Positions 34,925 through 57,194 of a stretch of 64,000 nucleotides of DNA are shown piece by piece. A program made the position numbers and the translations under genes. Source of the stretch: Pholiota molesta (Eukaryota > Basidiomycota > Agaricomycetes > Agaricales > Strophariaceae); contig JACGCK010000045.1 in NCBI GenBank assembly GCA_014925825.1, positions 186,001 through 250,000 of the forward strand. The letters are read 5' to 3'. The notes beneath the pieces were generated by a model. The model did not search any database, was not told the origin of the DNA, and was given only the letters and a program-made list of their open reading frames with translations. Each line of letters opens with the position of its first letter. Positions within the stretch are counted from its first letter, which is position 1.

Positions 34925-37297
34925 TTAAAAATCTACCGAGACGATTCCAAGAGAGCCACGATGCTTAAGGAAAGTTGGAGTGGGTAATGCCTTCGTAAAA
35001 ATATCTGCCACCATCTCGTCGGTCGGGATCCAAACGGTATCGAAAGTTTTGTCACTAATGAATTGACGGGTGAAGTGATATTTGACATCGATATGTTTCG
35101 ACTTCGAGACGTTCACGGAGTCGGGGTTGTTAAGCTGGCGGATCGTACTCTGATTATCACAAAGCAGAGGGAACGGCTGAGGAAATGGGAAGTCGAGAAT
35201 GCTCATAAAGGAGCGAATCCACAAAGCCTCTTTCATCGCATGAGCCATAGCATAGTACTCAGACTCCGTGGAGGAAGTGGAAACCGCTTTCTGTTTCGAA
35301 GACGACCAGGAAACCAAGCTGCCGTAGACGTAGAAAGCATAACCCGAAACGCTCTTGCGATCTTGTACGTCAGAAGCCCAATCTGCATCAGAAAGCCCAC
35401 AAGCCTGAAGATAAGGACGAACAGAAGCAGGAATGTCGTCAACCGGCACCGGGAATTGAAGAGCAGTATCCAGGGCACCAGCCAAGTAACGAAGAAGGCC
35501 TTTCGCAGCTAACATATGAGTACGAGTTGGGTTCGCGTTGAATTGTGACAGAGCGAGAGCTGTCGGCGCTAATTCGGGATGTGTGGTCATACCCAAATAC
35601 GTTGCCGTACCAACGATTCGCTGATAGAAAAGCTTCAAATCCGCATCCAAGAGACCAGGTAAGGCGTTATCAGGAGCTTCCGGGAGCTTCGACAGAGGCA
35701 TCGGTAAAGGATTACTCGAGGATTTCGCGTCGGACATTCCCCATTGGTCTAACAGGTCAGAGACAAGACCACGTTGGGACAACCAGAGCTTGCGAGCTGA
35801 ACGATCACGAGTTATGCGCATGCCAAGGTAAAGAGACGCTGGCCCAAGGTCGACAATGTCAATGGTAGCAAGAAGAGATTTGATAAACCAAGCATAAAGT
35901 GGAGGTGAGTTGGTTACCACGAGACCATCATCGACATGGACAGGTACGATCAGGAAGAGTGCGGTACCGGGCGGCGGCGGTGGAATTGATGGATGAGGTG
36001 GAGAATCCCAACGGCCAAAGAATACGGCATGGTCGACTTCACAGCGCACAAGACCCAACGCTTTCAGACGCGAAGCTAACAGGCGATACCATTTGCAGGC
36101 GGATTGACGTAGACCATATAGAGACACCCAGAGACGCAGCACCAAAGACGGATCATCCAGAAGGAAACCAGGAATCTGCTTGATGTACTGCGGGCGGTCA
36201 TCAACACCGAAAAGCGCATGCAGAAATGCCGTTTTGACATCGAAAGCCATGATTTCATGATCGTTCATAGCGGCCCAAGCGAGTATGATGCGAATGCTGA
36301 CCAACTTCACGACAGGAGCGTAAGTATCACCATAATCCTCGGGGAGCTGTCCACAGCCTTGTGCAACGAGGCGAGCCTTTTCCTTACCACGGATAATGGT
36401 ATGATTGGGATGAAATTTGAAATCAAACACCCACCGAACACCAATCGCTTTACGACCAGGAGGGAGAGGCTCGGGTGTGAAGGCTTTGCGTTCCGTGAGG
36501 CTGTCGAACTCGCGCTGCATCGCAGATTTCCAGACGAGGACATCGGGACGGGCAAGAGCTTCCTTGTAACATTCCGGTGGAACATCGGGATTGAATGTCT
36601 TGCGGCGAAACGGCGAAAAAGCGGCAAAACCCACCACATGGGTCACCCCCGTCAGGGAAGGATCTCGGGAAGGAAGAAATGAAGAAATACCATAAGAATG
36701 AAAAGTGTCCATAATAGGACGTTCGAAAGCAGAAAATGAAACAAAGGAATCAGAAAGAAAACGAGATAAAAGATTATAAGCGAACAATGAATGCACGGTA
36801 ACGACAGTATGGTAACATTGAACGGGAATATTACAGAAAGACAAAAAAACGTTTCGCTGATCAACAATACGAGGAAAAGAAACAGACAAAGCGGAATATG
36901 GAATTGAGCGAGAATGAAGAACACGAGTAGGATGTGATTCGATAGGTGGTGAAATAGCAGGTGTGGAAGAATCAGACAAAGCAACATCAGGCACAAGCGT
37001 ATAAGGAACCGTAACAGAAGAATCAGAAGAAAGAACATTGTCCAAAGGAGAAACATCATCGAGAAAATGTGGAGTAGACGGAAACCCAGATTCCAACTCA
37101 CTGAAAATGACATCGCGCGAAAACCAGTATTCCTGTAAGCGCACGAACTTTCCACCCAACGCGGCCTTCCTCATAGCCCACAAAGATAGCTTCAAAACGA
37201 CGAGGACTACCCTTGAGACGCAACTCAGGAGGGCGAATAGGAAAACACCGGCAACCAAAAGGACGTAGATGCTGGAGATCCGGAATAGCACCCCCAT
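34925..37297 (-). CDS. Copia pol, reverse transcriptase and RNase H part
   Basis: 790 codons open. The functional part begins inside this frame (VRLQEYWFSRDVIFSE) where the upstream pol frame is left near 37140. RT motifs: KAIGVRWVFDFKFHPNHTII, MAFDVKTAFLHALF (first catalytic Asp), SLYGLRQSACKWYRL, VPVHVDDGLVV (the catalytic DD, with HVDD in place of the usual YVDD). RNase H: LSDADWASDVQDRKSVSGYA, STSSTESEYYAMAHAMKEAL, LCDNQSTIRQL, KHIDVKYHFTRQ. It ends 124 bp before the 3' LTR. All key residues are present, so only the link to the upstream half is broken. Confidence 0.9.
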   Translation of the reverse strand: MGVLFRISSIYVLLVAGVFLFALLSCVSRVVLVVLKLSLWAMRKAALGGKFVRLQEYWFSRDVIFSELESGFPSTPHFLDDVSPLDNVLSSDSSVTVPYTLVPDVALSDSSTPAISPPIESHPTRVLHSRSIPYSALSVSFPRIVDQRNVFLSFCNIPVQCYHTVVTVHSLFAYNLLSRFLSDSFVSFSAFERPIMDTFHSYGISSFLPSRDPSLTGVTHVVGFAAFSPFRRKTFNPDVPPECYKEALARPDVLVWKSAMQREFDSLTERKAFTPEPLPPGRKAIGVRWVFDFKFHPNHTIIRGKEKARLVAQGCGQLPEDYGDTYAPVVKLVSIRIILAWAAMNDHEIMAFDVKTAFLHALFGVDDRPQYIKQIPGFLLDDPSLVLRLWVSLYGLRQSACKWYRLLASRLKALGLVRCEVDHAVFFGRWDSPPHPSIPPPPPGTALFLIVPVHVDDGLVVTNSPPLYAWFIKSLLATIDIVDLGPASLYLGMRITRDRSARKLWLSQRGLVSDLLDQWGMSDAKSSSNPLPMPLSKLPEAPDNALPGLLDADLKLFYQRIVGTATYLGMTTHPELAPTALALSQFNANPTRTHMLAAKGLLRYLAGALDTALQFPVPVDDIPASVRPYLQACGLSDADWASDVQDRKSVSGYAFYVYGSLVSWSSSKQKAVSTSSTESEYYAMAHAMKEALWIRSFMSILDFPFPQPFPLLCDNQSTIRQLNNPDSVNVSKSKHIDVKYHFTRQFISDKTFDTVWIPTDEMVADIFTKALPTPTFLKHRGSLGIVSVDF

Positions 37298-40200
37298 TCA
37301 TAAGACCATAAGGAGTAGCACCGGCAGGCAGAACAACCGAAGGCAGACGATTCTTAACGTACTGGGAGCAAAGAGCTGCGTCGAAAAAATACGACGGAGG
37401 GCAGCCAGCGTCGGCCAGTAACGTCTGAGCACCATCCTGAATAGTGCGATTTCGGCGTTCGATAAGCCCAGCTTGCTGATGAGCATACGGAGCGGTCTGT
37501 TGAATCGCGATCCCAGAGTCACGGAGGAAAGTACCCAATTCACCTTCAATAAATTCCTTCGCACCATCCATACGAATGGCTTTGACCCGACGATTCGTTT
37601 GATTCTCCCACAAGGCAATAGTACGTTTCACCTCAATATGAGAGTCACTTTTTAAGCGAAGTTCGATCAGACGGCCATACGTGGATTTCCCATCAACGAT
37701 ATCAAGGAGGAAACGACCTTTACGCCGACTAGCGACCGGGAAAGGACCCATGATATCAATGTGAACGACGTCAAGGAGCTCGGAAGGGCGATGGTTATGA
37801 GAGGCATATGGAGCTTGAGGTGCTTTACCAAGGACGCACGATACACAATGAGTGTCATCAAAAGAGCCGACGAAGGAAACACCAGTAGCATAACCCGGCT
37901 TGGTCAAAACCAGGCGAGTAATTTCACGACTAGGGTGACCCAGACGGCGATGCCACAGATCAGGTGAGAGAATGGAATTAGGAAAGACTGGGAACGCAGT
38001 AGGCGGTGCAGGGTCCAGAGGAGCAGGAGGATCAAGAAAATTGCACTGTAGGAAAGATAGTCTGTTGATACGAGTAGCCGAAACACGCAAACGAGGGCCG
38101 CTAGAGAGAGATTTGGGCAGGTATAGGATGGTATCGCGCACAACCGGGCCACCAGGAAAATGAAAATCAATACCTGCATCCTGCATAGCCCCAACAGACA
38201 AAAGATTCACCGGTACCTCAGGAGCATGTAGACAATCCTTCAGAGTCCAGACTATGGGCTGATCACCAATGTGGATTCGGAATTTCACATCTCCACGACC
38301 CATGGCCATCATAGATCCACAGTTCGCCGTTTTGATAGACACAGATTCCGTTGTAGAGTATGTCCAGAAAAATCGGCGATCACGGATGAGATGATTGGTA
38401 CAACCCGAGTCGAGCAGAGAATTGAAAAGGTGCGAACAAGACATAAAGACCAGTGGTTGAATAGTCGGAGAGAACAAGCCGTCTTCGGAAGCAATGGACG
38501 CGATGATAGGATCCTCACTAACGGACGCCAAAACATACGACGATAAAAAGATGTCATTGTTGACATGAGCGCTATCGACGGACACAAAGGCGGTGTCTAC
38601 GGGATCATCAACGAACAGAGGGACGGTGTCTTCAATCTGAATAGTATCTGCATGAGGTTCGTCGGGGGAAGGATCGGGAGGATCGCCATCTGGTACAGCA
38701 ACATGAGCCTGTGCCTTCGAACGGAAAGCTCGTCGAGATAGAACTTCGTCGCGTCGTCCTTCCATTGCACCCCCTTTTTGGTAGCAATCCGGAGTAGGAT
38801 GAGCACCCCCACAATTTCCGCAAGGGTCCTGATTTTTGGTTGTGATAGTAGTGGTTGTAGCGGATGAGGAACCGGCGGCGCGAGGAGGATAGGCTGTAGA
38901 AGATGAACGAGGAGCAGAATTAGATGTGCCAGGACGAGTTCGGGTAGCAGGAAGAGGGCGCGTGCGTTGGAGAGTGTTGTCGATATCCAGAACCGCGTCG
39001 AAGAGTTCATCCATGGGAGGGAGATCGTCATCCGGTGTCCTATTGACATGGTGCTCCAAAGTTTCGCGAAGATTCACATAGCGCGTATTGTTCGTAGGAA
39101 GACCCGCACAAAACATCTCGATGGCATCACGATGATCTAAAGGTCGACCAGCATGGCTCATCTGGAGGAGGCTAGTTCACCACGTAGTGATGAAGGTAGA
39201 CACAGAAACCGAAGGACCACAGTACCAAGTACGCAGTTTTGCGGCAACGAGCATAGCTGTACCATAATCACCACCCCCGTAGTATTGTTTGAGACGTTCG
39301 TAGAAGTCGCGTGCGGAAAGTTGAACAGGTGAATTCGGATCGCGAGATGGAATAACATTGCGGACAGTGGGAGATAGACGAGAGAGGATGATGTAGGATG
39401 CAATTTGGTCCCTGGACCACCAGAGCGCACTAGTTTGTTTCTCATCCACAGACGATAACGTCGAGACGATAGGAGGATACGTCGGCACAAAGTTCGGAGG
39501 GTAATAGGTCCCAGGATTGATAGTGGGAGAATTTACGTGATTCAACACCCCCGAATGGATGAGAAGTGCTATAACGCCATCGTGCCAACCCCCCCAGTCA
39601 GTTCTGCCCGTGAGAAGAGGAATATTTTTGGTATTTGGTAAAGCAGGGGTAGAAGGAGAAGGTAACGCAGGTGATATAATGGGAGAAGGAATAGGTGCAA
39701 CAGGAGAAGTAATGAGTGCAAGAGGAGAATGCTGATAATTGAAAGGAGAATCTAATTGACGAGAAATAGGTGTCGCAGGAACAGAAACTTGATGCGGACG
39801 AGTATAATTATAACGAAGACCAGATGCAGGAGAAGGATAACGCGGAGAATTCACAGAAGAAGAAGGCAAAAATAATGGATCGGCAGTTTGTGCAGCTGGG
39901 ATACGTCGCGAAACGGGAGAAAAATTCGAAGTCACGGGAGGACGTGCATTAATAGGAGAAAGTGACTGTATGCGCCCGAGAGGCGAATGTATGCGTGATG
40001 CAGGAGTATCATGAGAAGAAACGCGAGTGTGAGAAGAAGAAGGTGTTTGTATGCGGTTGGGAATTGAAGTAGGTGGTAAAGCAACACGCGGATTGCGGGG
40101 AGAATTGGTAGGAGGACGTTCTGAAGATTGAAGATTTAATGTACGCGGTGCATGAAGAGCAACACGCGAAAGTGGACGAATGCCAGGATAACGATCGACA

Positions 40201-46599: not shown

Positions 46600-47426
46600 A
46601 TCACTGCTTAATGTACAGGCGAGGGTAGCATGATTGATACAAATGACCAACGCTCATGGAGATACAAGACTTGCACTATGATCATAAGTTGAATACCATC
46701 CCTTACGAATCTGGTAAAGAGACCAACGAGCCCCGACTGTGTCTCTATACAACATTGAACTGCTTACTTTCTACCGAAGAACATATTTGGATCGCGCACC
46801 ACTAAGCTCTGGGCGCCTTTTTCTGGAACCTCAGAAGGAAATTTTTTATGAAGCCAGTTGCGCGTTGTGATGCAGCTAGAACGCGTGCATTCGCTTGGTT
46901 TCTAAAGTTGCAAATAAGTCCCTACCCCGCTTCTAACTAACGTTGAACTGCTTACTTTTGGTTGTTGTTATTGTTATTGTTATTGTTGTTGTTGTCGTTG
47001 TTGGAAGCATGTTTGGCCGCACCCTTGATGGCCTTACGCCCCTCGTGTGATTTGGCAGCCTTCTTAGCACCCCCCTTTAAAAGTCTGATAAAGAGAAAAT
47101 ACGAGTACCATTCAGCCTCGTTCCAGCGCTCATTAACGGTTGAACGTTGACTGCTTACTTCAAGCCCACGGAGAATAGACCTGGGTCACGCGCCGCTAAA
47201 GTCTGAGGTCGAGAATCTACGGGTGCCACTGAGTCGTCATTGTGGTGGTGGTGATGGTGGTGGCGAGCGTCAGGAGGAATAACACTAATCATAAGGGGAT
47301 GGTATCAGTATAGAATCAGAGGCCGGTGCAGATCGAATGAAAAGGCAGGAGCCGTTAGACGTACAGGCTGAGGGCGGAAATCGCAAACAGCACAACAGTA
47401 AGGACAAAGGTTAAGATCTTAACCAT
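46600..47426 (-). CDS. secreted modular His/Asn-rich peptide precursor, copy C
   Basis: Start ATG 47424-47426; signal peptide MVKILTFVLTVVLFAISALS, intron, IPPDARHHHHHHHNDDSVAP and LAARDPGLFSVGLK, with the GTAAGC donor inside the last Lys codon. The next exon carries GGAKKAAKSHEGRKAIKGAA and an 11-12 Asn run encoded by AAC/AAT triplets. With the standard acceptor (TATCAG|A) a G6 tract (47072-47077) throws the frame and a stop follows; an acceptor nine bases further (AAAAG|G) restores it. The fourth exon has two open readings: one ends at a TAG near 46803 (FIKNFLLRFQKKAPRA), the other carries VVRDPNMFFGRK, matching the module ends of copy B. The protein is therefore not settled. Paralogue of 48767-49539. 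Confidence 0.55.
46958..47003. repeat. GTT/ATT trinucleotide tract encoding poly-Asn
   Basis: (TTG/TTA)n on the plus strand, read on the minus strand as AAC/AAT codons in copy C of the peptide gene. Confidence 0.85.
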
Positions 47427-47534
47427 CGTTAACAGTGGGTTAAGTGTGGTAAATTATTCCACGACCGGCGCGAATGTGTTGAGGGGTAGATTTGTGGGGG
47501 GAGAACCAGCTGAAGACAGCGGAATGCAGCGCCA

Positions 47535-47545
47535 CATATTATATA
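47535..47545 (-). promoter_or_regulatory. TATA box of peptide gene copy C
   Basis: TATATAATATG on the minus strand, 109 bp before the ATG. The same 11-mer stands at 49664-49674 and 51309-51319, so it is conserved across the three copies while flanks differ. Confidence 0.65.
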
Positions 47546-47616
47546 CCTTCCAAATGCTCTCCTCCGGTGCCTCGCCGGGATCTGACATAAGAAACGAAGG
47601 CATCCTTTTCAGTAAC

Positions 47617-48766: not shown

Positions 48767-49539
48767 TTATAGGAATCCCGCCACTACGACGGCACCCTTG
48801 AGAACCTTGCGTCCTTTGCGTGATTCTGCGACATGAACACCCTCCTTTACGATTCTGTTAAAGATCATTGAGCCTCGACTGGGTTTCTGAACAAGGTTGG
48901 GCTACTTACTTTTTACCGAAGGATAACCAATTTGGATCGCGCTCCGCTAGATTCTCGTAGGCGACTTCGGCCGCGCCCCTCATGAGCTTACGGCTTGTAG
49001 GTGATTTCGCAACGCGAACGCCCCCCCGTACGAGCCTGCAACAAAGACAGATGAGCCCGGCTCCTTGTCCAGCTAACATTGGACTGCTTACTTTTTACCG
49101 CGGCCGTGGCCATGGCCGTGGCCGTGGCCGTGGCCGTGGCCGCCTTTGGCCACACCCTGCACGAGCTTACGCGCCCCGCGTGACTTTGCGACATGAATAC
49201 CCTCCTTCACAAGTCTGATAAAGCGAAGATACGAGTAACATTCAACCTCGCTGCAGTGGCCAATTAGCTGTTGGCTGCTTACTTTTCGCCTAGAGAGAAC
49301 AGATTTGGATCGCGCGCCGCTAACTTCTGAGGTTGAGAATCCTCAGCATTTAAGGGTATCACTGAGTCGCCGTTGTGGTGATTATGGTGGCGAGCATCAG
49401 AAGGAATAGCGCTAATCAAGAAGATGTTATCAGCATTCAATCAAAGGATCAACCAAGGCTAAAGCCTTTAGACTCACACGCTGAGGGCGGAAGTCGTAAA
49501 AAGTGCAATAGTGAGAATGAAGGTAGAGATCTTGACCAT
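48767..49539 (-). CDS. secreted modular dibasic peptide precursor, copy B (intact)
   Basis: Five exons: 49478-49539, 49283-49411, 49092-49214, 48910-49035, 48767-48854; 175 residues. Signal peptide MVKISTFILTIALFTTSALS; spacer IPSDARHHNHHNGDSV; then LAARDPNLFSLGEK. Each later exon is one cationic module: LVKEGIHVAKSRGARKLVQG with a Gly-His run GHGHGHGHGHGHGRGKK; LVRGGVRVAKSPTSRKLMRG ending LAERDPNWLSFGKK; and IVKEGVHVAESRKGRKVLKG to the stop. All three internal junctions after exon 2 fall in a terminal Lys codon (AA|A or AA|G, phase 2), so modules begin (L/I)V and end in dibasic or EK text. The layout suggests Kex2-type cleavage into amphipathic cationic peptides; the GH and His runs could bind Cu, Ni or Zn. 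I recognise no named family. Introns are 55-68 bp with GTAAG donors. Confidence 0.8.
49092..49143. repeat. GGCCGT hexamer tract encoding Gly-His repeats
   Basis: (GGCCGT)n with one GGCCAT variant on the plus strand; read on the minus strand as alternating Gly and His codons (GGC CAC) in copy B. Confidence 0.85.
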
Positions 49540-49663
49540 CTTTGATAGTAGTGAGCTGTTTGTGGTAAGTTATTCAGCGACCAGCGCGAATGTGGTGAAG
49601 AGCAGTAGATTTGTGGGGGGAGAAAGGAAGAGAACCAGCTGAAGATAGCGGAACGCAACGCCA

Positions 49664-49674
49664 CATATTATATA
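49664..49674 (-). promoter_or_regulatory. TATA box of peptide gene copy B
   Basis: TATATAATATG, 125 bp before the ATG, identical in the other two copies. Confidence 0.65.
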
Positions 49675-50499
49675 CTTTCCAATTGAGTTTGCCTTCCAAA
49701 ATAATCGCCTCCGTCGTCGGCAAGTCATCAGCGGTATGCAGTAGTACATGTCGGGATCTGACATGAGAACGGAGGTATCCATTTTCGAACGTGTGACATT
49801 GATTAGTCGGGGCTATGTATGTTGATTCAGACAGCGTCACACCTTGACATCAACATCGCAACAGATCGCAACGGCTGTAGATAAGTACATGTACAGCTTT
49901 GGGATATTCATATGTAGATGCGCTACCAGGTTCAGTATGTATTTCAATTTTGAAGTCCTTTGGGCCCGCTTGGGCCCGTTGATTATCAAAGATCGATCAT
50001 GCCAAGATCATGCATCACAATGGATCATCGGCTGCGAGAGAATACCTCTTCGAATCACAGGAGTGAAGCATCAAACAAGATTTGCGGGGTGTCAGCGGAG
50101 AGCCACTCAAAATGCGAAGTTATGATGTACCCCGACTCCCGAGGATCTATACTTCTGTCCGTTGCACAAGCAGTCTCGTTCGCTTTGAGTATAGTTCGAT
50201 TATTGAACGATAAATATGAGCATTCAATATTCAGTATTAACAATCAACTTAGAAATAATCAATGAGCAGAAAAGAAGCGCGATTGACACTCACATTGCCC
50301 CAGTGAAACCAAAGAAGCAAAGGGCCTGTATTAGTGTAGGAACTTTGGTGATTACAGAAATTCTTCATCCCCACAATGGATAATTGACAGCCCGTGCACC
50401 AACTGTCGTCGAATGATATGACCGCTTAATGTACAAGCGAGGGTAGAATAATGGATACAAATAACCCATGCTCACGGAGATACAAGAATTGCATTATGA
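49675..50499. other. spacer between peptide gene copies B and A
   Basis: The 49844-50160 part is a diverged duplicate of 51385-51700 (shared GGGCCCGTTGAT, GATCAT(C/T) and GCGTCAACGGAGAG/GTGTCAGCGGAGAG blocks), that is, the duplicated upstream region. From about 50290 it is the shared 3' flank of copy A. No gene. Confidence 0.5.
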
Positions 50500-51206
50500 T
50501 TATAGGTTGAATATCTCCCTTACGAGTCTGTCAAAGAGACTATCGAGCCCTGAATGTGTTTCTGAACAACGTTGAACTGCTTTCTTTCTACCGAAAGAGA
50601 CCATATTTGGATCGCGCACCATTAAGTTCTGGAAGGCGCCTTTAAATGCAAAAACTTGAAGATCGAATTCGAGATCCGTGCCACCGTAGCCTGAACGCGC
50701 GCATTTGTGGGTTTGCTGAAGAGACAAATGAGTCCCGACTCCGATTCTAACTAACGTGGTGCTTACTTTTTGTCGGAGCCACTTTTGGCCACCTTCCCAA
50801 TGACCTTACGCCCTTCGCGTGATTTGGCGACTTTAACACCCGCCTTGATACCCCCGTTAGAAGTCTGATGAAAAGAAAATCCAAGTACCATTCAGCTTCG
50901 CTCCTGTCGCCAATTAACGGTTGACTGCTTACTTCAAGCCTATGGAGAATAGACCTGGGTCACGCGCCGCTAAAGTCTGAGGTGGAAAATTCTCAGCAAC
51001 TACGGGTGCCACTGAGTCGTCATTGTGCTGGTGATGGTGGTGGCGAGCATCAGGAGGAATAACACTATTCATAAGGGGATGATATCAGTAAAGAATCAGA
51101 GGTCGGTGCAGATCGAATGAAAAGGCTGGAGCCGTTAGACGTACAGGCTGAGGGCGGAAGTCGCAAAAAGCACAACAGTAAGGACAAATGTAGAGATCTT
51201 GACCAT
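50500..51206 (-). pseudogene. modular peptide precursor, copy A (degenerate)
   Basis: Start ATG 51204-51206, signal peptide MVKISTFVLTVVLFATSALS, then IPPDARHHHHQHNDDSVAPV and LAARDPGLFSIGLK. Exon 3 has the module GIKAGVKVAKSREGRKVIGK but in a frame not reachable from exon 2 through the TCAG acceptor; a G-tract (G5 at 50870-50874) is one base off. Exon 4 carries LMVRDPNMVSFGRK, but the donor that is GTAAGC in copies B and C is GAAAGC here, so the frame reads through intron text to a stop at 50500. Two independent lesions make a functional product unlikely, although the signal peptide and first module could still be made. Confidence 0.65.
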
Positions 51207-51308
51207 CGTTAACAGTGAATTGTGTGTGGTAAATTATTCCGCGACCGGCGCGAATGTGTTGTGGAGTAGATTGGGAGAACCAGCTGAAGATAGCGGAACG
51301 CAGAGCGA

Positions 51309-51319
51309 CATATTATATA
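51309..51319 (-). promoter_or_regulatory. TATA box of peptide gene copy A
   Basis: TATATAATATG, 103 bp before the ATG; same 11-mer as in copies B and C. Confidence 0.6.
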
Positions 51320-51834
51320 CCTTTTGACGAGTCGGCGGAAGGAATATGCCTGAGTATGCCAATCCAGACAGCAATGACATCGGTATAGCAATTGCTGCAG
51401 ATGAGTTCATGTACTGCTTCGTAAATATAGACACGGACCAGGTTGAGTGCTTCAAGTCCCATGGTTCCGATGTCATGGGCCCGTTGATAATCAATGAGCG
51501 ATTATGCACATGGATCATTCAAGGCCGGGAGAGAAGGCAACTTCGAGCGTACACACATTCTGGAAGTTTATGGAGTAGACATGAGTGCGAAGCATGAAAC
51601 ATGATGCATGAAGCTTGAAGCTTGAAGGAACATTGATTTTTGCGGAGCGTCAACGGAGAGAGGCTCATAGCGAGGCTACATATGATGTACTTGACGCCCG
51701 TCGCACGAATGAGTAGTCTCGGATACATACTCGGTTACATATTAAATACGGCAGCATCTGGTAGCATCAAGGTAGTAAAAACCGGCCTGTGTAATGGTTG
51801 ATAAGTACGAAACAATCGAAGTCGAAACGGGTTG

Positions 51835-51950: not shown

Positions 51951-52833
51951 CATCTGCAGCTTGGGCGCTTGGGTTTGGGTCCGGTGCGAATCCCGGGTCA
52001 ACAAGACCTAAAGCAATCGGAGGAGTAACCCAAGTGTAAGAATTCTGAGCTCAAATGTTTTTGGGAAAAACAACTCTCATTCAATCTGTACCTGTAAGAA
52101 TTGCAAGCTACGGTACGTCGTAGTAAGTAAGGTTTATAAGAAGATACACTAAAGTAGCTCACCTCGGATGTCGGGATGTAAAACACATATACATATACAT
52201 ATAAGGTTTTTAAAAAAAGGGTCCGTAATCATGCAACAAAGACAAAATTATAATACAAGAATTGCGCGCGAAAGCATGTAGGCTAAAAGTATCTGAAATT
52301 GACGGAAACAGAAAGAGGCGCGCACGCCATGCGCTCGCGGCGCGTTTGAACGCACGTTCGCATTATTCCAATATGGTCCTAAACAATAGTGCAAGGGAAA
52401 TCCTTTGTACAGGTCAAAGCGACACAGTAAGTACAACACATTATTGCTTTGGCATCGCACCCCGTGAGAGTTGCATGATCCATAGATAGAGTCTGGCGCA
52501 CGCCGCAGAGCATTGTCGGACTTCGCATAGCAGAGAAGATTCCCTAGCAAGTTATTAATTGTGTACGAATAGTCAGCCTGATAGACCTGGTAGGAATCAT
52601 CTCACCTGGCTGACGCTGTTCCAGATGCTCTTGCAGTCGTAGGATTAGTGATCTAGTGCTGTTTTTGGCGCTGCGCATGCAAGCGTCTGGGGAGGGCCGA
52701 AGAGTACGCGTCGATGGCCTTCTGTTGACCAAGCAATGACGAAACCTGTTCCTACGTCCAAAGCATAAAAAGCGAGAGCAGGGAGTACTGCAAACTAACA
52801 ACATACAGACCACATTCATCAGTCATAGCAGAC

Positions 52834-53520
52834 ATGGCGCCACACACAATTCACTTCGGCCTCCTTCTCCTGCCAAAGTATCAGTGGTTGGATGCCGCTG
52901 GCCCCGTGGACTTCTTTTACTCCCACACCCAGGAGTCCATGAGAGCCCTCAACCTGGACGAAGCCACCATCGCGAAAGCGCCGATCATCGAATGGCACTA
53001 CATCTCCCACGACTTCACGCCCGTCCAGGCCACGTCGGGTCCCGCAGGCATCCCCACAAACACCTACGCCGACTGCCCCGCGCTGGACTACCTCCTCGTC
53101 CCGGGAAACGACCTATTGCACCCGCTCCCCGAAGGGTGCGCCGAGTTCCTCTACAAGCTCATGGCGGACGACGGCTTCAAGGCTCTGCTCACGGTGTGCA
53201 CGGGCTCCATGGCGATCGCGCCGACCGGGATCCTGGACGGCCTCCGCGTGTGCAGCAACAAGTACGCGCTGAAGATGGCGGTGAACGCGGGGAACTTGTA
53301 CAAGAACGTCAAGTGGGTAGGGGATAGGCGCTGGCATGTCGAGGGGAAGGTGTGGAGCTCTGCGGGGATCACGGCGGGGATCGACCTCGCGGCTGAGTTT
53401 GCGAGGGTGCACTTTGATCCTGTGGTGGTAGAGTACGCGAAGATTATCGCGGAATATCAACCCAAGCCAGCGAAGCCAGACGCATTCGATTTTGTTCTTG
53501 ACGGAATTGACTTGGCTTGA
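52834..53520 (+). CDS. DJ-1/PfpI protein, isocyanide hydratase-like, copy 1
   Basis: Intronless, 228 residues. Nucleophile elbow ALLTVCTGSMAIAPTGILDG (Cys about 122 followed by Thr), QWLDAAGPVDFF with the Asp (about residue 20) that corresponds to the catalytic Asp of bacterial isocyanide hydratase, YADCPALDYLLVPG, and GITAGIDLAAEFARVHFDP. This set (Asp, CTGS, GITAGID) places it nearer to isocyanide hydratase-type members of the DJ-1/PfpI superfamily than to peptidases or glyoxalases. No signal peptide, so cytosolic. It is the most divergent of the four copies: GNDLLHPLPEGCAEF and a C-terminus ending DGIDLA. Substrate not shown; isonitrile hydration is a family-based inference. Confidence 0.8.
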   Translation: MAPHTIHFGLLLLPKYQWLDAAGPVDFFYSHTQESMRALNLDEATIAKAPIIEWHYISHDFTPVQATSGPAGIPTNTYADCPALDYLLVPGNDLLHPLPEGCAEFLYKLMADDGFKALLTVCTGSMAIAPTGILDGLRVCSNKYALKMAVNAGNLYKNVKWVGDRRWHVEGKVWSSAGITAGIDLAAEFARVHFDPVVVEYAKIIAEYQPKPAKPDAFDFVLDGIDLA

Positions 53521-54989
53521 GGGCGTTATTTCAGAACACGTATAATACCGTTTCTGGTACCTAAGCACTTCGTCATGTGAAATGTGTATGTACTTATTAC
53601 GGTCTGACGATCTTAAATAACGGAATGGTTTGCTTACGCTCAGTTTCGAGGGGAAATTGAAGGACTTGCGACTTACACTACCGTGCCGATCCTTATATCA
53701 AGAGATGCCAAGGACAAACAGCAGACAAGCAAGGCCGACGCGGGCGCGAAGACTCGGAAAGTGTGTTGGTACTGCAACGAGCTGCGCTAGCATACCTTCA
53801 GTTGGTCTAAGCCATGATGATCTCGGCCATTACGAATCTCCCGTCAGACTCGAGTGAATAGAAGGCTTCGCGACTCACATTGTATTCCTACACCTGATAC
53901 GGTCGACTGCTCTATCTCATTCCATGTCTAATTTTAGTCTTTGCTCTCAACGAATAATAGTACTCGTTCTTTTACTGGATTCAACTTCATTAGCATCAGA
54001 ATTCAAGCATTACGCTCAGACACGCGACACACCTTTTGGGTCATACTTGACAGCAGTGAACTTGATGAGCCACTGAGCACCACCATGTGCTAAGAATCCT
54101 CGAAGACGGAAACTGCAGCCCGCAGAACCGGTTTCAACGACGGAAAACTGGACGCAAGACTTCACACTGGACCTCTCCTTCTTGCACGACAGCAACACAA
54201 GGTTAAGTAGACCCGCGTGCGTTTGAGAAGGTGGCTCTAACACTGCAACAGGTCAATCGTATGCAAAAGATAGACATGGTAGGAATCTCACCTGGCTACC
54301 GTGCCTTCTCAGTCGGAGACTGAAGTCATCCAAAGATTTTTTTTTGCGCTGCGGAGGGCCGAAACACGTCGACGGCCATCTATCTGTTGAGCAAGCAATA
54401 ACGAAACCTGTTGCTTCACCCGCAGAAAAAAGGTCTGGAGCTTGTATTTGAGTCCGACGCGAGTCCTGGGTCCACGAATCCTGAAGCGGTCAGAAGAGCA
54501 ACCTAAACAATAGCGCAAAGGAAATTGTTTTGTACAGTTCAAGGCGACAAAGTAAGTTTAACACGTTACTGCTTCAACATGGCACTCAAGGATGGTTGCA
54601 TGGTCCATAGATAGAGCGTGGTCCAGAGCATTGACGGGTGAAACGTCGAACTTCGCATGACAGAGAAGGTGGCCCTAACAGGTCGATCATGTGCCAAGAG
54701 TTAGCTTGATAGACCTGGTAGGAATCGACTCACCTTGCTGCCGCCGATCTAGATGCCCTTGCAGTGGGAGTCCGAAGTGATCCAATGATATTTTTGGCGC
54801 TGCGCAAGGCTGCGCATGCAAGCGTGCGCTACCCAAGGCCGAAGAGTACGTGACGATGGCCGTATGTTGACCAAGCAATAACGAAACTTGTTCCTACGTC
54901 TGAAGCATAAAAGCCAGAGCAGACGGTCGTGTACTGGAAACTAAAAACATACCGACCACATTCACTAGCCAATCACACCCCTCGCAAAC
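53521..54989. other. inter-copy spacer of the DJ-1 array, unit 1
   Basis: Holds degenerate pieces of the unknown gene seen complete at 59590-60385 (-), a decayed bL33m copy (53928-54303, listed separately) and the pre-DJ-1 repeat (about 54310-54900). No intact gene. Confidence 0.55.
53928..54303 (-). pseudogene. decayed copy of mitochondrial bL33m gene, unit 1
   Basis: Exon 2 relic reads FTAVKYDPK followed by a GTGTGT donor at 54031 (intact gene: LSAVKYDPK). The exon 3 relic near 53928-53975 keeps ACTCGTTCTTTTAC...CTCAACGAATA similarity, and an exon-1-like splice site is at 54281-54303. The middle has unrelated sequence (about 54100-54240), so no protein is possible. Confidence 0.6.
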
Positions 54990-55676
54990 ATGGCGCCGCA
55001 GACAATCCACTTCGGCCTCCTTCTCCTGCCAGCGTATCAGTGGCTGGATGCCGCTGGTTCCGTGGACTTCATTAACAGCCACACCCAGTTCCTCATGAGA
55101 GTCCTCAGAGTGGATGAAGCCATCGTCGCAAAAGCGCCGAGCATCGAATGGCACTACATCTCCCACGACCTCAAGCCTGTCCAGGCCACTTCCGGTCCCG
55201 CAGGCATCCCCACGAACACCTACGCCGACTGCCCGGCACTGGACTACCTCCTCGTCCCGGGCCCCGACCCATTCGCCCCGCTCCCCGAAGGATGCGCCGC
55301 GTTCCTCCAGAAGCTGATGGCGGCCGACGGGTTCAAGGCCCTGCTCACGGTGTGCACGGGCTCCATGGCGGTCGCGCAGACCGGAATCCTGGACGGCCTC
55401 AGCGTATGCAGCAACAAGTACGCGCTGAAGATGGCTGCCGGCGCTGGGCTCTTAAACAAGAACGTCAAGTGGATTGGGGACAGGCGCTGGCATGTCGACG
55501 GTAGGGTGTGGAGCGCGGCGGGGATCACGGCGGGGATCGACCTCGCGGCTGAGTTTGCGAGGGTGCATTTTGATCCCGTGGTGGTGAAGATTGTGAAGGA
55601 TGCCTCCGAATACGAACCCAATCCAGCACAGCCAGACCCGTTCGGCCGTATCCTTGACGGAGTTGACTTATCCTGA
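54990..55676 (+). CDS. DJ-1/PfpI protein, isocyanide hydratase-like, copy 2
   Basis: Intronless, 228 residues, near-identical design to copies 3 and 4. QWLDAAGSVDFINSHTQFLM carries the presumed catalytic Asp; note GSVD here where the other copies have GPVD. ALLTVCTGSMAVAQTGILDG has the nucleophile Cys-Thr; GITAGIDLAAEF and HVDGRVWSAAG follow. It ends DRRW...FGRILDGVDLS. It lies 1.5 kb after copy 1 in the same orientation. The Pro-to-Ser change next to the active-site loop is the one difference most likely to affect catalysis. Confidence 0.8.
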   Translation: MAPQTIHFGLLLLPAYQWLDAAGSVDFINSHTQFLMRVLRVDEAIVAKAPSIEWHYISHDLKPVQATSGPAGIPTNTYADCPALDYLLVPGPDPFAPLPEGCAAFLQKLMAADGFKALLTVCTGSMAVAQTGILDGLSVCSNKYALKMAAGAGLLNKNVKWIGDRRWHVDGRVWSAAGITAGIDLAAEFARVHFDPVVVKIVKDASEYEPNPAQPDPFGRILDGVDLS

Positions 55677-56504
55677 GGGCGGTATTGCAGAACATGCATG
55701 ATATCCGTTTATGGTACCTGAGAATTTCGTTATGTGAAAGGTGTATTACAATATAAAAAGTTTGTTTACGGCGAGTTTCGAGGGGAAATTGAAGGACTTG
55801 CGATTTACATTGCACCGAGCTGGAGAATTTGTAAACAATTCGTCAAATAAGAGATGCCTAAGACAGTAAACAACACGACTAATGAAAATGCGAAGTCAGT
55901 CAAAGTGTTTTGGTACTGAAATGAGCTGCGCTAGCATGCCTGCATTTCGTTGTGTGAATGGTATTTAAAACTCACTCGAAGACCCTCCCGTCGCTCTCCT
56001 GCCACCTATTTACGACGTCTATCGTTGGCCAGTGTACAAACAACGTTTGCCAAGTTTTAGCACGATTCCCTCGTCCAGCGTCGACGTGTTGCTCACTTAT
56101 TCGGGGTTGTGATATGGATGGGTTGACTTATCTTGAAGATGATCTGATACGAAAGCTGTAATACCCGTTTGGGACCGGACGCAAGCCTTCGCTAAGCCTA
56201 AACCTCCCCTTATTGCACGACAGCGCCAAGGTTAGACCCGCGTCGTTCCAGAAGGTGGCTCTAACTGTGACAGGTCAATCGTATGCACATGGGGAGTTTT
56301 GATAGACTTGGTAGGAATCTCACCTGGCTACCCGCAAGTGTGCTCTGCGGAGGGCCGAAGACTACGCTCGATGCGGCCGTATGTTGACCAAGCAAGGCCG
56401 AAACTGTTGCTATATCCGAAGCATAAAGCCAGAGCAGACCGTCGTGTACGGAAAGCTATTAACATATCGACCACGCTCATCAGCCATCCACATCCATCGC
56501 AAAC
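55677..56504. other. inter-copy spacer of the DJ-1 array, unit 2
   Basis: Shortest spacer. A relic of the unknown gene at about 55980-56110 (-) still shows VHWPTIDVV-like and QESDGR text. bL33m exons 2-3 are missing; only its intron-side block and exon-1 splice region (56200-56335) remain, so this unit carries an internal deletion. Confidence 0.5.
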
Positions 56505-57194
56505 ATGGCGCCACAGACAATCCAGTTCGGCCTCCTTCTCCTGCCAGGATATCAATGGCTTGATGCGGTTGGCCCCGTGGACTTCATCAACAACCACAGC
56601 CAGTTCTACGTCAGCGCCCTCGGACTGGATGAAGTCACCGTCGCAAAAGCGCCGCGCATCGAATGGCACTACATTTCCCACGACCTCATGCCCGTCCAGG
56701 CCACCTCCGGGCCCGCAGGACTCCCAACGAAAACCTACGCCGACTGCCCAGCGCTGGACTACCTTCTCGTCCCAGGCCCCGGTTCATGGGCGGCGCCCCT
56801 CCCCGAAGGATGCGCTGCGTTCCTCCAGAAGCTCATAGCGGACGACAGCTTCAAGGCCTTGCTCACGGTGTGCACGGGGTCCATGGCAGTGGCGCAAACC
56901 GGGATCCTGGATGGTCTCCGCGTGTGCAGCAACAAGTACGCGCTGAAGAGGGCTGTCGGCGCAGGGCGCTTGAACAGGAACGTGAAATGGATTGGGGACA
57001 GGCGCTGGGCTGTCGACGGGAAGGTGTGGAGCGCGGCGGGTATCACGGCGGGGATCGACCTCGCGGCTGAGTTTGCGAGGGTGCATTTTGATCCTGCGTT
57101 GGTGGAGTTTGTGAAGGATATCTCGGAATACGAACCCAATCCAGCGCAGCCAGACCCATTCGCCCGTATTCTTGACGGAGTTAACTTGTCTTGA
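56505..57194 (+). CDS. DJ-1/PfpI protein, isocyanide hydratase-like, copy 3
   Basis: Intronless, 229 residues (one codon longer: GPGSWAAPLPEGC). QWLDAVGPVDFINNHSQFYV, YADCPALDYLLVPG, ALLTVCTGSMAVAQTGILDG (Cys-Thr), KRAVGAGRLNRNVKWIGD, GITAGIDLAAEF, and the end FARILDGVNLS. Same superfamily assignment as copy 1. All active-site motifs are intact. Its last 80 codons are almost identical to copy 4, pointing to recent duplication or gene conversion between copies 3 and 4. Confidence 0.8.
   Translation: MAPQTIQFGLLLLPGYQWLDAVGPVDFINNHSQFYVSALGLDEVTVAKAPRIEWHYISHDLMPVQATSGPAGLPTKTYADCPALDYLLVPGPGSWAAPLPEGCAAFLQKLIADDSFKALLTVCTGSMAVAQTGILDGLRVCSNKYALKRAVGAGRLNRNVKWIGDRRWAVDGKVWSAAGITAGIDLAAEFARVHFDPALVEFVKDISEYEPNPAQPDPFARILDGVNLS

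Follow-up and report, generated by a model that had tools for sequence, protein, structure and literature searches.

The window, the whole 64,000-nucleotide stretch of Pholiota molesta DNA that was analysed, is part of C389, one contig in an assembly of 65.6 Mb, and carries three tandem paralogues, g1, g2 and g3. The middle gene, g2 (48767..49539, minus strand), has five exons (49539-49478, 49411-49283, 49214-49092, 49035-48910 and 48854-48767) that splice into an open frame of 175 amino acids and a stop, and its four GT..AG introns are 55-68 nt long and in phase 2 throughout, with introns 2-4 splitting a Lys codon. An earlier note on this DNA had described a five-exon gene in which three successive introns cut the terminal Lys codon at the same phase; both descriptions were borne out, the first by the joined exons and by agreement with a deposited allele model, a 171-residue protein (P0001) from contig C58 that is identical to the spliced model of the g2 allele gB. 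None of the deposited proteins is identical to g2 itself, and the P0001 match is a second prediction, which does not prove that g2 is transcribed; judged from its sequence, g2 is a real gene. Exon 1 (49478..49539) encodes an apparent signal peptide, MVKISTFILTIALFTTSALS, recognised by inspection, and in the allele model a low-confidence helix is predicted over residues 2-20, the region of this exon. Exon 3 (49092..49214) encodes a module that opens LVKEGIHVAKS and closes GRGKK, with an (HG)n linker at its end. Exon 4 (48910..49035; LVRGGVRVAKS...RDPNWLSFGKK) and exon 5 (48767..48854; IVKEGVHVAESRKGRKVLKGAVVVAGFL and the stop) encode further modules, and the DNA of both is similar to that of exon 3.

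The two paralogues that flank g2 in the same window had been overlooked. The first, g1 (46802..47426, minus strand; exons 47426-47365, 47284-47159, 47084-46956 and 46901-46802), encodes 138 amino acids and is deposited as P0005, which differs from the model at one residue, having Ala where the assembly codes Val (residue 22). The exon 3 of g3 (50622..51206, minus strand) is frame-shifted at 50767-50864 relative to the C58 allele gA, a shift that could be genuine or an artefact of assembly; the deposited P0003 is this frame-shifted g3, is shorter, and ends differently from the spliced reading of the gene, and gA encodes an intact protein of 128 amino acids (P0002). The cluster is present in both haplotypes: C58 is taken as the second haplotype because it carries the same three-gene order with matching neighbours on both sides, namely a gene at 44.3-45.9 kb and another at 52.7 kb. 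Six copies were compared, g1, g2 and g3 on C389 and their alleles gC, gB and gA on C58. P0001, P0002 and P0004 equal the spliced gB, gA and gC letter for letter, and these deposited models are predictions, not transcripts. A genome search for further members returned the two allelic clusters only, besides a weak match on contig C257 (E 0.2). All three paralogues share a 56-bp upstream block with TATATAATA, which lies at 49630..49685 (minus strand) and starts 135 nt before the ATG of g2, with counterparts at 47501-47556 (119 nt before the ATG of g1) and 51275-51330 (113 nt before that of g3).

Around the cluster, remains of a Ty1/copia-type retroelement lie on the minus strand at 34928-39176 of the window, with matches to RVT_2, Pol_BBD, SH3_retrovirus and gag_pre-integrs, and tandem DJ-1/PfpI-type genes occupy 52740-57191 (PF01965 at 54969-55673 and 56463-57191). 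The flanking 52.7 kb gene resembles the adjoining DJ-1/PfpI-type copy, and several related stretches on C389, C58, C6 and C51 give the appearance of an expansion adjoining the peptide cluster.

The modules of g2 are related to one another beyond chance at the DNA level. Fifteen pairings of exon and intron pieces of g2 were each compared with 1000 shuffles, and in five of them no shuffle reached the observed score: exon 3 against exon 5 (29 of 33 aligned bases identical), exon 3 against exon 4 (28 of 37), the tail of exon 2 plus intron 2 against the tail of exon 4 plus intron 4 (43 of 54), and a piece of intron 3 against pieces of intron 2 (16 of 17) and intron 4 (20 of 22). The similarity of exon 4 to exon 5 is weaker, with 10 of 1000 shuffles reaching its score. 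Because intron as well as exon pieces are similar, it was probably a genomic unit, RDPN...GxK / intron / (L/I)VKEG..., that was duplicated. The earlier description of a cationic, exon-duplicated, apparently secreted repeat protein is supported.

The reading of g1, gC and gA ends in exon 4; behind it, as also in g3, a different frame of the DNA retains L-x-x-R-D-P-N. In g1 this relic of the second site lies at 46767..46805 (minus strand), at and behind the stop (LVVRDPNMFFGRK), and similar relics are found in g3, gA and gC. The persistence of the untranslated motif behind all four readings suggests that the ancestor was probably longer. Alternative splicing of these untranslated frames in g1 and g3 was considered by eye and rejected; the old donor in g3 and gA reads GAAAGC and GGAAGC, for which reason the frames are treated as relics, and their sites are marks of ancestry with no sign of present use. 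A simple repeat makes up the linker. In g2 it is (HG)n, from a hexamer tandem repeat at 49098-49142 whose length differs between alleles; in g1 and gC it is poly-Asn (46961-47003 in the window), and gA has none. The idea that (HG)n is itself a functional peptide was dropped because the paralogues carry poly-Asn or nothing at that position.

From the N-terminus onwards the proteins share a plan: a signal-like segment, a His-rich pro-piece, and then L-x-x-R-D-P-(N/G), once in g1 and g3 and twice in g2, each translated motif being followed by a Cys-free segment rich in Lys and Arg; g1 and g2 also have low-complexity linkers. The RDPN motif noticed earlier does recur, with the correction that it reaches upstream as LxxRDP(N/G). 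In g2 the proposed processing sites are LAARDPN (49303..49323, minus strand), with a cut after Arg54, Asp-Pro at 55-56 and a mature start at N57, and LAERDPN (48930..48950, minus strand), with a cut after Arg137 and a mature start at N140. Each of the 12 sites in the six copies, eight of them translated and four relics, carries L-x-x-R-D-P; Leu, Arg, Asp and Pro are invariant across the 12, and positions P3 and P2 vary. Shuffling yields LxxRDP by chance in only 2-9 of 5000 trials per protein. LxxR alone is not enriched (1148 of 5000 shuffles for g2), and in all six proteins examined every LxxR past the signal region has Asp-Pro next to it.

The other candidate cut is KK. On the reading of the earlier note, Kex2 would cut after KK at the exon joints and so release one peptide per later exon (LVRGG...GKK, IVKEG...GFL), and both g2 and gB do have GKK at two joints out of three. 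The joint before module 1, however, reads GEK in g2, and across the six copies, where it is GEK or GLK, it never contains KK; joint 2, which is GKK in g2 and gB, reads KN in gA and gC and QK in g1, and KK is missing there from four copies of six. Other KKs occur in g1 and gC, one of them within a module. The cationic segment that follows LxxR-DP continues across the intron, and in all four proteins run joint 1 lies within an 18-residue hydrophobic-moment peak, as do joints 2 and 3 of g2; joint 2 of g1, gA and gC is not covered by one, and each protein has more peaks off the joints. Since KK is not conserved at joints 1 and 2, and since the amphipathic peak and a predicted helix cross joint 1, the idea that each later exon is a peptide bordered by KK cuts is not supported, and the module borders first drawn are probably wrong. 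As sequence conservation goes, L-x-x-R / D-P is the better-conserved candidate cut, and cleavage at KK as the main processing route is improbable; the KK joints of g2 may be secondary cuts.

Published accounts of kexin specificity bear on both candidates. Kex2 is described as favouring Arg at P1 and Leu at P4, with an expanded LxxR motif (PMC8528282), and acidic residues are reported to be over-represented at P1' of processed sites (PMC2515848). XA and XP dipeptides are described as being taken off by STE13 (PMC6339444, PMC7329392), and Coprinopsis precursors produced in Pichia reportedly gave products apparently cut after a single Arg, with XA/XP removed (PMC9769878). KK is named in one paper as a minor or lesser Kex2 site, which favours the KK model. 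A stricter Kex2 matrix given in PMC2515848 rejects both: residues other than Lys or Arg at P2 score 0 and Leu at P4 scores 0.09, so LAAR and LAER would fail, and P1 Lys scores 0, so KK is excluded as well. In the 12 sites P2 is Ala, Glu or Val, never Lys or Arg, and the dibasic site of STE13-processed precursors is accordingly lacking; the Asp-Pro that follows Arg in all 12 is an XP dipeptide of the STE13 type, with the Arg as the presumed kexin site. The P. molesta genome contains matches to the kexin P-domain and to DPPIV_N, both in general genes not specific to the cluster.

These features suggest that the three tandem genes probably encode secreted precursors. We propose that a kexin in the Golgi would cut after the Arg of LxxR and that a Ste13/DPPIV-type aminopeptidase would then strip the Asp-Pro dipeptide, releasing peptides that begin NLFSLGEKLVKEG, NWLSFGKKIVKEG and GLFS(I/V)GLKLL; the products of g2 would be one that starts at N57 and another that runs from N140 to L175, and the g1/g3-type product would be GLFS(I/V)GLKLL.... 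Outside the cell the released peptides would form cationic amphipathic helices, and their most likely role, the least certain step of the proposal, would be membrane or surface activity, either against competitors or at hyphal surfaces.

The four RDP-led segments tested carry a net charge of +5 to +8, and cysteines past the signal region number zero in all five intact copies. Amphipathicity is only modestly above that of shuffled sequences: for the four RDP-led segments 6.6%, 10%, 8.1% and 12.4% of the 2000 shuffled versions reach the observed value, and for four others 2.7-37%. AlphaFold2 models are poor (n=2, mean pLDDT 42.1 and 51.0); at this low confidence, helices are predicted from the Pro of RDP onwards and over joint 1, and disorder of the pro-region was judged from low pLDDT alone. 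In both allele pairs compared (the g3/gA pair is omitted, g3 being frame-shifted), residues 54-88 have no nonsynonymous differences, against 6 and 16 elsewhere, with a one-sided p of 0.26 and 0.007 and a pooled p of 0.003 for a region picked post hoc; synonymous changes in these residues are also few (0 and 1). Between paralogues, dN/dS over residues 54-88 is 0.57, 0.86 and 0.57, against 0.57, 0.58 and 0.59 for the whole, and the region is no more constrained than the rest. With amphipathicity modest, models poor and constraint mixed, we can only infer membrane or surface activity.

The predicted helix starts are also what would be expected if the protein were secreted whole and helical, with structural repeats. 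An Asp followed by Pro at the start of a helix is a usual N-cap, and Asp-Pro would then serve that purpose and mark no cut. The uncertainty of Kex2 preference for LxxR-DP sites favours this explanation too. An N-cap leaves unexplained, though, why the Arg and the Leu three residues further up are kept when the residues between them vary; the helices are of low confidence, and the (HG)n and poly-Asn linkers do not suggest one fold. An intact secreted helical protein is therefore rather unlikely. If peptides are released, they could also be signals, as has been suggested for basidiomycete precursors with the STE13 signature, and not membrane-active agents; the X-Pro after the cut is the very signature reported in basidiomycete KEX2-processed repeat proteins (KEPs). 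The precursors for which this was suggested are described as having dibasic sites and short repeated cores, whereas the sites here are monobasic and the predicted products basic and 36-80 residues long, and a signalling role seems very improbable. On the evidence of the sequences, we put at about even the chance that the genes encode secreted precursors from which an LxxR kexin cut and removal of Asp-Pro would release cationic, helical, membrane- or surface-active peptides.

Protein searches against 5.77 billion proteins gave matches from Pholiota molesta only. One search, with a limit of E <= 0.1, kept 3 of its 1670 candidates. With the limit at E <= 10, a second kept 5 of 7998, scoring being confined to the candidates that had the most words in common with the query, and a third kept 2 of 10. 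Because the method relies on annotated proteins and on five-residue words in common, it may miss relatives that are unannotated or very diverged. No Pfam family was matched in the three proteins scanned, and the gene family was not found in print in the open-access literature. A PDB relative was rejected, the best match (E 0.015) covering residues 28-88, which take in the His-rich stretch; of two segments searched against PDB sequences, one gave no match and the other E 1.6 and 1.8. The Pfam and protein searches agree with the earlier note, which knew of no named family with this design, and on present sequence matches the cluster has so far been seen in one species, which is listed with a JGI genome link in a paper on post-fire fungi (PMC7055920). 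More tentatively, and with rather less than even probability, the cluster may represent a new mushroom family of linear, Cys-free, cationic helical peptides with an intron inside the peptide, growing by duplication of an exon-intron unit and released through a joint code, LxxR for kexin and Asp-Pro for a Ste13-type peptidase, that dibasic KEP searches miss. If so, it would be a clear case in which peptide number grows by exon-intron duplication and shrinks again, leaving untranslated relics in paralogues.

Several known systems resemble the cluster in part. Dikaritin-type RiPPs were considered and rejected: an exon-wise search found 11 UstYa (DUF3328) matches among the best candidates in the genome, none of them on C389 or C58. 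Copsin is a Cys-stabilised fungal antimicrobial. As described, it is a kexin-processed mushroom peptide, as the products of the cluster would be, but the five intact copies have no cysteine past the signal region. Ece1/candidalysin and Ustilago Rep1, compared by description only, are secreted precursors that yield several peptides via kexin, as is predicted for the cluster, the candidalysin products being amphipathic and helical and those of Rep1 surface-active; their cut sites differ from those of the cluster. Ascomycete alpha-pheromone precursors are described as having an X-Pro or X-Ala dipeptide right after the cut, as here, but theirs is a dibasic KR cut with short cores, where the cluster has a single Arg and long cationic segments. 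In K2PP-type precursors, as published, the pro-piece closes with the expanded LxxR motif before the middle of the protein; KR or RR may take its place, and the pro-region in front is expected to be disordered. All five intact proteins (128-175 amino acids) have LxxR in their first half, within residues 49-55, with cleavage itself predicted; the cluster differs in its following Asp-Pro, in the second LxxR-DP of g2, which would free a second peptide, and in being a mushroom gene set and not a plant pathogen's effector.

A further parallel may be drawn with the KEPs (PMC6339444, PMC7329392, PMC9769878), which are described as small fungal precursors with a signal-like N-terminus, repeated modules and candidate kexin sites, and with which the cluster also shares an STE13-type X-Pro after the site; its hydrophobic N-terminus was judged by inspection only. 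Unlike KEPs, the cluster proteins have no KR or RR, their modules are diverged, and their site is the monobasic LxxR. The KEP filter (PMC6339444) demands four or more fragments when a protein is cut at KR/RR or, failing that, at KK, and the intact copies give one fragment each with KR/RR (5 of 5) and 3, 3, 1, 3 and 3 with KK, g3 being omitted. As for the at least three similar repeats between sites, g2 has three DNA-related modules, not each bounded by KK. The cluster would, on its sequence, work like kexin-processed secreted precursors and yet it fails the published KEP filter. If the proposed processing is true, a monobasic LxxR-DP code is open to fungal peptide precursors and escapes a KR/RR/KK filter (PMC6339444), and mushroom genomes may for that reason hold more unlisted secreted peptides.
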